DNA from: Robiginitomaculum sp.
GTDB lineage: Bacteria > Pseudomonadota > Alphaproteobacteria > Caulobacterales > Maricaulaceae
Length of the DNA: 54,409 nt
Direction: 5' to 3'
Assembly (NCBI GenBank): GCA_016765135.1
Contig: JAESQN010000032.1
Coordinates: 1-54,409 of the forward strand
A program made the position numbers and the translations under genes. This document shows positions 22,926 to 50,464 of this stretch, piece after piece. The notes below the pieces were generated by a model. That model ran no database searches. It saw only the letters and a program-made list of their open reading frames with translations, and had not been told where the DNA came from. Every line of letters begins with the position of its first letter. Positions within the stretch are counted from its first letter, which is position 1.

Positions 22926-23042
22926 GAAGTGTTTTTCTGGTCAGTATAAATTCAGGCTAAAAATTTACTGGATGCAAATTTCGTGTATCCCCTCTACCTG
23001 CATTACCCCTCACCTGTACGAACGGGAACATAGGTAACAGTT

Positions 23043-24261
23043 CTAACTGGCAACATGGGTAACAGTCTTCGCACTTTGTTCTTTGTTTTGCAAGCCCCCG
23101 CCCCGGCGTCGGGGCGGGGGCTTGCAAAATTGGTTTTTTGTATTGATGGTTCCTAGCAGGACAGGGCCGAATCGTAATGTCCATATGCCGTGTTCTTGTT
23201 CATCAATACTGATGGGTTCCCCGGCCAAGGTCTGACTGATATAAAGCAACTGCCCGTTCCATTTGATCTCGCCATTGCACCGAACCCGGCGCACAATGAC
23301 ATCTTGCCCGTACTCAGGCGAACGTAGTCTGCCTGACCAGGTTCGCACACTGGCTTGATAGTGGCTGGCGGGGACATTCATGGCCAGTGCCTCATGGGGG
23401 CGTTGATGGTTATAAACTTTGGTAAAGTGTTGGAAGCGGCGGTTCTGGGCAGTACGGGATCGAGCCGCTGGTTGGATGGTATCTTGCTTGAGCGTTCGGT
23501 GCAAACGTTCCAGTCGCCCGTTCTGGGCAGGTGAGGCCGGGTCGATATGATCAGGCAGTACGCCGGCCTTGACCAGCCGTACCGCCAGAGGCGACAATCG
23601 CCCGGCAGCAACAGATGCAAAGGGCGGCCCATTATCAGACCGAATGGCCAAGGGTAAACCAAACTCATAGAAACAGGCGTTTAACACTGGCCAAACCGTC
23701 TCCACATCAGTGCGCATGACCGCCTGACACCGCAGGAGATATCGGCTGGCTCCGTCAATCAAGGTAAAAGGTTCACACTTCTTGCCGTCCCCGGTAACAC
23801 CAACCCTTGAAGTCCATACACCACAGGTCATTGGCCAGGGCACAATTGGCAAATGGCCCGTCAAGGCCCGGTACTCTGGCCCGTTTACGACGGCGATGAA
23901 CCAAACCTTCGCGGGCTAAAAGATCACCAATACTACTGACTGCCGGCCAGCTCTGTCCTCCGTCCAACATTAACAAACGGGCTCGTAATTTCTTTGGCCC
24001 CCAAGTTGGGTGCCTCTTTCGTAGCGCCAATATGCGCTCAATGACCAACTCTGACATCGCGTGCGGTGTGTGCAGTGGCGCACGGGAGCGTTCCGACAAA
24101 CCCTCCATACCGTGACGCGAAAAGCGGCGAAGCCACTTGTATCCGGTCTTGCGGGAAATGCCGTACTGTCGACAGAGTTCCGAAGTCGATAGCTCCTCAT
24201 CTTGTGCTTCAAATACAAACTTTGTTCGTTCTTCCATAATACAGGTCTCCGTCCAGGGCAT
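23043..24261 (-). pseudogene. IS481-family transposase, frameshifted
   Basis: The N-terminal part (from ATG 24261, MPWTETCIMEERTKFV) has a helix-turn-helix (STSELCRQYGISRKTGYKW) and reaches LWCMDFKGW, where the first catalytic Asp sits. The frame then shifts near 23793-23800; the continuation TGDGKKCEPFTLIDGASRYLL, with IRSDNGPPF (second Asp) and PASPAQNGRLERLHRTLK (Glu), is in another frame up to 23043. A 2-base loss after the TGG codon best restores the family spacing. IS481 transposases are normally one ORF and no slippery heptamer is visible, so this is decay and not programmed frameshifting. The last 30 codons read through the GC-rich palindrome and the left end repeats. Confidence 0.88.
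23086..23129. terminator. Perfect 20 bp GC-rich stem-loop inside the IS
   Basis: TTTTGCAAGCCCCCGCCCCG (23086-23105), loop GCGT, then its exact complement (23110-23129). It lies in the last codons of the transposase. With A/T flanks it looks like a rho-independent terminator working in either direction and could insulate the IS from its surroundings. Confidence 0.7.
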
Positions 24262-24539
24262 CACAAATCTCCTCTGCAAATACCGCTTGTTACCTGTTAC
24301 CTATGCTCCCGGTCTAATCTGTTACCCATGTTGCCAGTCTATACCCTCCTTGTTCCTCTCCCAAAAGGAGAGGAGACCACGTGCGTTTGCTTTGTGATCT
24401 GTATAAAGGCTTTAATGAATACTGAAACACCTGTAAGGAAACCTCTGAACCATAAGCAAATAAAATGCTCAAGACACCGTCTCCTCTCCTTTTGGGAGAG
24501 GAACAAGGTGAGGGGTAATGGGGGTGAGGGGGAAACCCT

Positions 24540-48834: not shown

Positions 48835-49019
48835 AAGGGTATTTTAGCGTTGAATAGGTGAAATGGCTAGCCGCAAATTCGTTTGGTTGACTATAGTTTT
48901 GTTTAGCTATTGTGCGGGTGATACATCCCACCCCGTTGCCTCACACTTAAATGATTAAACTGGTTTATCGGTTTGTCATAAGGCGGTCATGTATTGCATG
49001 GCGGGCTTTTAGTCGTAGT

Positions 49020-49790
49020 TCAGGGTGGTTTTTCTGGTCTGGGATTATCCGGGCGGATGCCGTGTTTGTCAGGGTGCGCCTGGTTTGGCCCATCAAATTT
49101 CTTCAGTGGCGGGTCTTCACCATATTTTTGGGCCGGGTTTTCAATTTTTGGTTCCCGGACACTGACGCCTAGCTCTGAAGGAAAAAACCTTATTGGTTTT
49201 TGTGGGCGCGGCGTGCGTGCCGGGTGCGGTTTTTCCGAAAGCTCAAGGCTTGCCAGATGGTTCGCCGTGCGCGCCGCATGTCGTAAATTCCCGGTATCGC
49301 TAGAGAATGCCGGGCGTATATTGCGCGGCCACCGGGGTCTGAACGGCAGCAGTTTTTCAACCTCCGACAGCCTGACCAAAGCAAAGAGTTTATGTGTACG
49401 TGGCTTGTATGAGCGCGGCTTGTCCCTGCGTTTCGCATCAGGTTTTTCTTCCCGCCTATTTCCTACCGTCTTGGGCGCAGTATAAGCAGTCCGGAGCCGG
49501 GCGACCCAGCTTCTTATGGCCGCTTCGCCGATTACCGAGCGTACCCAGGCCGTGCGCTCAGGACATTGTTTCACCCAGGCTTTGATCTTGAGGTTCAAAT
49601 TGCTGCGAGTTTTTGTGCGCAATTCTTGGCTATGTTGCGCCAACATGTGGGCGTAAGATTTAACGTCCCTGGCGCCGCCAATCCCGAGTTCAAGCACCCG
49701 CACCAACACCAAAACAAACGCCCGCAAATCCGCCAAAGGCGTAACCCCGGCCGGGCAAAGTTTTTCAATAGCGATCAAATCAAGTTTCAT
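49020..49790 (-). CDS. Orphan Pro/Arg-rich protein of unknown function
   Basis: I do not recognise this 256 aa protein. The N-terminal third (MKLDLIAIEKLCPAGVTPLADLRAFVLVLVRVLEL to about 90) is helical and has a hydrophobic stretch near 24-37; the rest is basic and disordered, rich in Pro, Arg and Lys (for example EEKPDAKRRDKPRS, PARTPRPQKP, REPKIENP), ending DNPRPEKPP. ATG at 49790 is preferred; the longer frame to 49892 would read into the MITE arm. The N-terminal part might bind nucleic acid or act as a small helical domain. The frame is intact, so I keep it as a gene despite the odd composition. Confidence 0.6.
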   Translation of the reverse strand: MKLDLIAIEKLCPAGVTPLADLRAFVLVLVRVLELGIGGARDVKSYAHMLAQHSQELRTKTRSNLNLKIKAWVKQCPERTAWVRSVIGEAAIRSWVARLRTAYTAPKTVGNRREEKPDAKRRDKPRSYKPRTHKLFALVRLSEVEKLLPFRPRWPRNIRPAFSSDTGNLRHAARTANHLASLELSEKPHPARTPRPQKPIRFFPSELGVSVREPKIENPAQKYGEDPPLKKFDGPNQAHPDKHGIRPDNPRPEKPP

Positions 49791-49880
49791 AGACGCACTA
49801 TATACGCTCCCAAGAAACCGTGGATTAGATTTTGGGAATAATAAAATTAGGCGGGGAACACCGTGTTTCCCCGACAGCCC

Positions 49881-50072
49881 GTAACCCCTCACCTTGTTCC
49901 TCTCCCAAAAGGGGAGGAGACCACGCTCGCTTGTTTTGTGATTTGTATAAAGTTTTTAATGTGTACTGATACACCTGCAAGAAACAGTGGAAACCTTTAA
50001 ACTTTCAACACACAAAAATGGCAAAGACACCGTCTCCTCTCCTTTTGGGAGAGGAACAAGGTGAGGGGTTAC
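49881..50072 (+). repeat. MITE-like element, copy 2 (192 bp)
   Basis: The left arm GTAACCCCTCACCTTGTTCC... (49881-49921) equals the reverse complement of the right arm (50032-50072) over 41 bp with one mismatch. The core shows clear similarity to copy 1 (shared TTTGTGAT.TGTATAAAG and ACACCTG.AAG). Same orientation as copy 1. No coding capacity of its own, but the right arm encodes SPLLLGEEQGEG in the frame that continues into the DUF559 gene. Confidence 0.88.
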
Positions 50073-50104
50073 GCGGGTGTCGGGTTTGTGCTAAACTTAC
50101 CCCC

Positions 50105-50464
50105 ATGCACACCCGCAACACAACAAACATAGCCCGCAAGTTTCGGCGCAGGCAGAGCAATTCGGAAGCTATATTTTGGCGTGAAGTGAGAGGCCGTTTG
50201 CTGGCGGGTTACAAATTTCGCAGGCAGGCTCCTATCGAAAGCTATATTGTTGATTTTGTCTGTGAAAGCGCGAAACTTGTCATAGAGCTTGATGGGCATC
50301 AGCATGCCTATACTGAGGATAAAGACAGAACCCGCACGGCGGCGCTGGAGACATATGGCTACCGGGTGATCCGGTTTTGGAACCATGATGTTTATGATAA
50401 TCTGGATGGTGTCATAGCCGAGGTCTTGCGGGAATTGGAGTTGGCTAAAAACCGGGAGATATAG
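50105..50464 (+). CDS. DUF559/Vsr-like endonuclease-domain protein
   Basis: This 119 aa protein has the DUF559 pattern, a restriction-endonuclease-like fold related to the very-short-patch repair nuclease: RRRQSNSEAIFWREVRGRLLAGYKFRRQAPIESYIVDFVCESAKLVIELDGHQH, then RTAALETYGYRVIRFWNHDV. The Glu/Asp/Lys-type residues of the fold (SEAIFW, YIVDF, ELDG) look intact. The ATG at 50105 gives the family start; the frame is open back to 50018 through the arm of the MITE-like repeat, adding a repeat-derived SPLLLGEEQGEG peptide if used. The cellular job is unknown; DUF559 genes often sit beside such repeats, and no methylase is near. Confidence 0.85.
   Translation: MHTRNTTNIARKFRRRQSNSEAIFWREVRGRLLAGYKFRRQAPIESYIVDFVCESAKLVIELDGHQHAYTEDKDRTRTAALETYGYRVIRFWNHDVYDNLDGVIAEVLRELELAKNREI

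Follow-up and report, generated by a model that had tools for sequence, protein, structure and literature searches.

Intrastrand-triplex repeats of the BoxC/PIT/TM class have been known since the 1990s and, by one count, occur in more than 260 genomes (PMC4666352). The accessible part of this 2015 study describes intergenic, dispersed motifs, often in inverted pairs, each with a C/T arm, a G/A arm, a mirror-related third strand and a TTA or CCG linker, all of which they have in common with the repeats described here. E. coli MG1655 carries 23 TM copies; a triplex was seen in vitro for the single strand only, and neither double-stranded TM DNA nor in vivo footprints revealed one (PMC4666352). 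The study reported no mobility genes in the vicinity of the motifs, and its accessible part describes neither a nuclease nor a link to DUF559 (PMC4666352).

REP/REPIN elements and RAYT (TnpA-REP) proteins together form 'REPtrons', in which, according to the accessible part of PMC3733652, palindromic dispersed repeats likewise occur in inverted pairs, a dedicated nuclease gene is flanked by repeats, and copies follow the gene. DUF559, however, is of the PD-(D/E)XK type (PF04480) and not an HUH Y1 enzyme. Further, the repeat arms in the window (the 54,409-nucleotide stretch of Robiginitomaculum sp. DNA analysed here), whose family is the one read for this feature, lack a GTAG foot and carry a mirror tail, and Y1_Tnp does not track the motifs. 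Since the enzyme differs and the window family has no GTAG foot, the DUF559 system is not a member of RAYT/REP but appears to work like it, and the comparison with RAYT drawn in the first-pass annotation is apt as an analogy.

Other described systems share single features with this locus. I-Bth0305I, an EDxHD Vsr-like homing endonuclease (PDB 3r3p), resembles DUF559 in fold and profile, but no intron was found here and DUF559 is associated with triplex repeats. VsrA of Caulobacter is itself a DUF559 protein, which causes DNA damage in cells without a cytosine methylase, is linked to the SOS response there and is proposed, in the accessible part of the report, to be a mismatch-repair nuclease (PMC12907096). 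Given this effect of VsrA, DUF559 may have more than one role. Classical MITEs mobilised by DDE transposases are also short, with inverted arms and no coding capacity; they differ in that here no target-site duplication was seen (at sites where no exact empty site was found), no DDE transposase is implicated, and the arm folds. The pairing of DUF559 with triplex repeats is rated new, because among the known systems found, none combines such an enzyme fold with repeats able to form a triplex; it was absent from the titles and abstract openings found, subscription papers lying outside the scope of the search.

The window element and its DUF559 gene

The first-pass annotation had reported a 192-bp element with inverted arms of about 41 bp, 32 bp upstream of a DUF559 start codon, and this is confirmed (Table 1). 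The arms span 49880-49921 and 50032-50073, are 42 nt long and 98% complementary, and are spaced 110 nt apart; the ATG of the gene lies 31-32 bp downstream of the element. The left-arm hairpin has one mismatch. The right arm fits the BoxC/PIT/TM motif at 8/8 positions when one A-to-T change is allowed, with a linker of 3 nt: the first 8 nt of the tail are the non-reversed complement of the 5' arm with one A replaced by T. The arms end in GGTGAGGGGTTACG. By sequence, the inverted arms are not just a MITE terminus but belong to the known intrastrand-triplex class. A flank scan for hairpins and repeats found the motif upstream of the window gene and not downstream. At a typical DUF559 gene the motif tails point towards the gene on both sides, whereas the tails of the window element point outward.

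Table 1. Coordinates of the element, its parts and the adjoining gene in the window
Feature	Position	Strand	Details
MITE/REPIN-like element, 192 bp	49881..50072	.	two inverted triplex-motif arms and a spacer of ~110 nt
Left arm	49881..49921	-	minus-strand reading of the right-arm motif; tail outward (CCCCTCACC at 49885)
Right-arm hairpin	50035..50055	+	TCCTCTCC - TTTTG - GGAGAGGA
Third-strand tail AGGTGAGGGG	50059..50068	+	preceded by linker ACA
DUF559 nuclease gene, 119 aa	50105..50464	+	alternative in-frame start at 50018, within the element
Second near-full-length element copy	24348..24516	+	BLAST

The 2.87-Mb genome, in 52 contigs, yielded 70 BLAST pieces of the element: 12 near-full-length copies, that of the window among them, and many single arms. 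A second family member had been placed at 23001-24520; this interval holds a full copy (Table 1) and, separately, an arm tail at 23006, and is not one element. The genome encodes four DUF559 genes, all of which (4/4) adjoin an inverted-repeat element, the arm sequences differing from gene to gene. Directly to the left of the window element lies a multi-copy stretch of about 880 bp (49002-49885, containing an ORF at 49020-49892 on the minus strand), further copies of which are present in several contigs of the genome at 71-90% identity.

The reading frame is indeed open through the right arm of the element, from the ATG at 50018 (SPLLLGEEQGEG). This alone is weak evidence, since in 37/76 alphaproteobacterial cases no stop interrupts the frame across the upstream hairpin. 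The downstream hairpin extends into the DUF559 ORF in 64/117 cases. The simplest reading of the leader peptide is as a by-product of the motif, which is poor in stop codons; both counts are as such a motif would predict.

The window protein matches PF04480 with an E value of 4.6e-41 (139.5 bits against a cut-off of 20.6), and the Pfam families it matches are DUF559, MTES_1575 and DUF2726 only, with no HUH Y1 transposase. DUF559 is still listed in Pfam as of unknown function. Ten residues (R14, E21, R40, Q41, D50, E61, D63, G64, H67, and R90) are invariant in 32 sequences, so that the acidic/His core is conserved. The structure of the DUF559 protein is predicted with a mean pLDDT of 88. Its best Foldseek match is 3hrl, a DUF559 structure of gonococcal origin that has no assigned function, followed by I-Bth0305I (E 1e-4, probability 1.00) and, lower, by E. 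coli Vsr (E 0.036). A profile search likewise returned 3hrl and then I-Bth0305I (E 1e-4), while the Vsr family model TIGR00632 scored 20.4 bits, below its cut-off of 97.85.

Triplex-class motifs beside DUF559 genes and across genomes

In the repeats flanking DUF559 genes, a C/T-rich arm is followed by a loop and the complementary G/A-rich arm; a tail comes after a short linker or a second hairpin. Read in parallel, this tail complements the 5' arm and so mirrors the G/A arm, frequently with T in place of one A. Arm/tail pairs include CCCTCTCCC/GGGTGAGGG (41 units) and CCCTCCCCC/GGGTGGGGG (13); further pairs are the asymmetric CCTTCCCCC/GGATGGGGG (9 units) and CCTTCTCCC/GGATGAGGG (7). Across 260 units the tail covaries with its own arm, with a similarity of 0.843 against 0.777 for shuffled arms (sd 0.004, 0/300) and 0.777 for a direct copy of the 3' arm, a control that keeps composition and kinship. 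For asymmetric arms (n = 186) the corresponding values are 0.855, 0.782, and 0.763. Homopurine mirror repeats of this kind are characteristic of intrastrand triplexes of the purine-motif type. Judged by their sequence, the repeats flanking DUF559 belong to the BoxC/PIT/TM intrastrand-triplex class. In many motifs (e.g. L039, L043, L061, and L073) a second hairpin stands in place of the short linker, an arrangement that would still permit the tail to fold back as a third strand.

The link between DUF559 and these repeats is shown by several independent counts. Of the 385 alphaproteobacterial genomes drawn, 125 contain PF04480. The alphaproteobacterial set of 113 DUF559 loci combines 80 hand-picked regions, 29 tool-made ones and the four of the window genome; it is non-random and favours strong PF04480 matches, and all 113 loci were kept. 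With a hairpin defined as a 7-bp stem, one side of which is purely C/T, a C/T-G/A hairpin was present within 160 bp upstream at 77/113 loci, between -75 and +120 of the stop codon at 77/113, and on either side at 98/113. Control rates at the same loci were 16/1973 for random windows, 10/376 for the starts of other ORFs and 14/376 for their ends (2.7-3.7%). Longer inverted repeats were found upstream of 34 and downstream of 28 of the 113 genes, against 98/1133 random windows.

The association extends to a wider set, the best 80 of at least 549 relatives found by genome scan, which covers Gamma-, Beta- and Deltaproteobacteria, Nitrospirota, Chloroflexota, Omnitrophota, Planctomycetota, relatives of Cyanobacteria, and others. 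A hairpin lay on either side at 50/55 non-alphaproteobacterial and 23/25 alphaproteobacterial loci of these best 80 (control, 22/1507 windows). Four of the 80 named loci duplicate loci of the whole-genome draw; they were retained in this hairpin count and in the tail-mirror statistics and left out of the stem-pair, open-frame and strict-motif tests. Vsr genes encode a related fold, but a hairpin adjoined none of 25 of them (three of 28 matches, weak or partial, were left out).

A strict motif, requiring stem, mirror tail and linker, was found beside 98/113 alphaproteobacterial loci (on both sides in 59) and beside 66/76 named loci from many phyla (both sides in 36). Single control windows of 235 bp contained it in 21/1875 (alphaproteobacterial) and 17/1419 (named) cases, or 1.1-1.2%; as both flank windows combined cover about 545 bp, roughly 3% is the appropriate chance expectation for 'either side'. 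In 119/137 upstream and 105/122 downstream cases, the motif nearest the gene had its tail pointing towards it. Adjacency of motif and DUF559 gene is far above chance.

Motif copies and DUF559 genes also co-occur genome-wide. Copies of one arm-type pattern were counted in the same 385 alphaproteobacterial genomes, in which a reversed control pattern was nearly absent (among the matches listed, two genomes with 7 in all). At least three copies were present in 70/92 genomes with a strong DUF559 match (E < 1e-20) and in 22/293 others (p 1.7e-37); where the DUF559 matches were weak only, the figure was 3/33. Within the 35 informative families, 42 such genomes were observed against 28.8 expected (sd 2.4), a value reached in 0/20,000 within-family permutations. 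After subtraction of four matches per gene, 51/92 DUF559 genomes keep copies elsewhere. As exceptions, the 22 genomes without strong DUF559 have three or more matches and 11/92 with DUF559 have none, which may reflect genome incompleteness or arms of another type. The correlation of arm number and location with DUF559, on which the first-pass idea depended, is clearly positive.

A joint model of 115 genomes (G000-G114, their identity inferred) took genome size, Vsr and Y1_Tnp as covariates. Motifs were borne by 23/30 genomes with DUF559 and 4/85 without (joint-model p 1.2e-11). Vsr taken alone was associated with motif-bearing genomes (11/22 vs 16/93, p 0.0036), but not clearly so in the joint model (p 0.061). 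Y1_Tnp showed no association among these 115 genomes (6/23 vs 21/92 without; joint p 0.54), leaving RAYT unsupported as the responsible enzyme.

In E. coli, a DUF559 protein is encoded by ycjD, which is flanked by sapF and fabI and occurs in 3365/5426 complete genomes. BoxC motifs follow ycjD, and the motifs beside the gene have the BoxC/PIT/TM form. Sixty records were taken at even steps, with ycjD presence judged from coverage of a ycjD-adjacent 101-bp query. Similar places number 10-23 (median 16) in the 37 records covering most of the query and 1-16 (median 3) in the remaining 23, among which HH97 has a partial ycjD. These numbers are consistent with the link but not independent, since ycjD presence follows lineage, and the relation in E. 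coli may reflect one or a few events. In other lineages the sapF-fabI region (L334-L337) holds MFS/outer-membrane efflux genes or an SMI1/KNR4 gene at the ycjD site. Two further E. coli sites vary between strains: the single nrdA-nrdB intergenic site (L342, L347-L349) has a BoxC motif in some strains and REP arrays in others, and tldD-aaeR (L341, L350, L351) has alleles with 6-12 bp deletions within the triplex motif.

Paired motifs, relocated units and orthologous sites

The two motifs beside one DUF559 gene are cognate. The stems on both sides were identical in 56% of 91 genes, compared with 6.4% between genes (0/2000 permutations), and within one genome the similarity of a gene's own stem pair was 0.92 against 0.79 for another gene's. 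Arm type tracks protein similarity weakly (Mantel r 0.15, 1/1000) and was rejected as a strict label of protein clade; L282 and L289, from one genome, are 74%-identical DUF559 genes with different arms.

In each of two genomes, a BLAST comparison of 228 DUF559 stretches, some of which are one locus taken twice, revealed gene and motifs duplicated together, as one unit, in unrelated surroundings. In one genome, L096 and L099 share 516 columns at 80% identity between unrelated flanks, the shared stretch starting with CTCCCCTCACCC and ending with GGGTGAGGG. In another, L078 and L082 share 681 columns, with hairpins at both bounds. The polarity of the L096 unit is that of the 192-bp window element, which would accordingly be a gene-less form of such a unit. 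Within the genus of the window, a window-type arm and DUF559 occur together at other sites (G390:C20 and G391:C29); at the orthologous site of the window in G390, no DUF559 piece was among the matches listed.

Presence and absence at orthologous sites is clear. At the L031 site the unit is present in two genomes (G000 and G387), five have 18-77 bp in its place, four have other DNA of 390-1091 bp, and three further genomes were not assessable. Two dispersed element copies are missing from G386 and G391, where 4-35 bp stand in place of 270-356 bp. Neither a target-site duplication nor an exact empty site was found at L031, at the two dispersed-element sites or at the E. coli sites; no exact junction is readable because the exchanged stretch is each time larger than the motif or element. 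The sister-genome comparison proposed in the first-pass annotation accordingly yielded presence and absence without an exact insertion point. Within the genus, the L031 site itself (L031:1311-1893), between acyl-CoA dehydrogenase and thiolase genes, is a hot spot of insertion: two genomes have the DUF559 unit there, four have inserts of other, unrelated kinds, and five have short gaps.

Explanations for the association

We propose that DUF559 is probably the dedicated enzyme partner of BoxC/PIT/TM repeats, mobilising or maintaining them, an interpretation that draws on the counts and comparisons above. One strand of the repeat could fold into a purine-motif triple helix, and the gene typically lies between two inverted copies. 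The repeat would fold once single-stranded, for example at replication, and DUF559, as a Vsr-like PD-(D/E)XK nuclease resembling I-Bth0305I, may then recognise the fold or its junction and cut there. Repair or copying could subsequently spread the gene and its motifs together, or else pairs of motifs that lack a gene, of which the 192-bp window element is an example; alternatively, it could keep existing repeat copies intact. Of the first-pass proposal that DUF559 mobilises or resolves the arms, the association with the arms has been borne out, while binding and cleavage of the motif by the protein, and its copying or transposition, are steps we infer.

A somewhat unlikely account is that DUF559 acts in maintenance or repair and not in mobility. 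It would resolve folded hairpin or triplex DNA at sites of replication or repair, allowing DUF559 genomes to tolerate repeats that spread by other means, and the motif beside the gene would be an autoregulatory target. The Vsr-like fold, the motif deletions in E. coli alleles and the tie of VsrA to DNA damage and the SOS response in Caulobacter without a cytosine methylase (accessible part of PMC12907096) are consistent with such a role. On its own, however, it leaves unexplained the matching of the inverted motifs that bracket the gene, the relocated units that end at motif edges, and the relocation of gene and arm in G390 and G391.

The recognised structure might also be a G-quadruplex or a plain hairpin on the G/A strand in place of a triplex, with the DUF559 link otherwise standing. 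Many motifs do contain four G-runs with short loops, but the tail mirrors its exact arm even in the asymmetric pair noted above, which a quadruplex would not require, and we consider this unlikely. It is quite unlikely that DUF559 homes to the repeats as a free-standing nuclease, its gene thereby ending up inside or between them, with another agent spreading the repeats. The similarity to I-Bth0305I, the position of the gene between motifs and the match of the L031 protein to the PADLOC 'homing endonuclease' model (E 0.00087) point in this direction, but motif numbers track DUF559 across genomes and within families, as a mere passenger would not need to, and no alternative agent was seen, Y1_Tnp being unassociated. 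That small dispensable genes simply collect intergenic repeats by chance or insertion tolerance, as the intergenic position of the motif and the co-occurrence of Vsr alone with motif-bearing genomes might suggest, is rejected on the Vsr genes and the other genes of the same loci and is extremely improbable.

Under the proposed partnership of DUF559 with BoxC/PIT/TM repeats, two unknowns, the function of DUF559 and the spread of BoxC/PIT/TM repeats, appear to explain each other. Whether this amounts to a new class of minimal mobile element we regard as evenly balanced: a Vsr-like nuclease of about 110 residues, distributed over many bacterial phyla and bracketed by triple-helix-forming DNA whose fold would itself be the recognised end, E. 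coli BoxC being its motif-only offspring. If true, an enzyme unrelated to RAYT would be added to the idea of a repeat plus its nuclease, and DNA triple helices would have a natural protein partner. E. coli K-12, which has both ycjD and BoxC, makes the idea directly testable.
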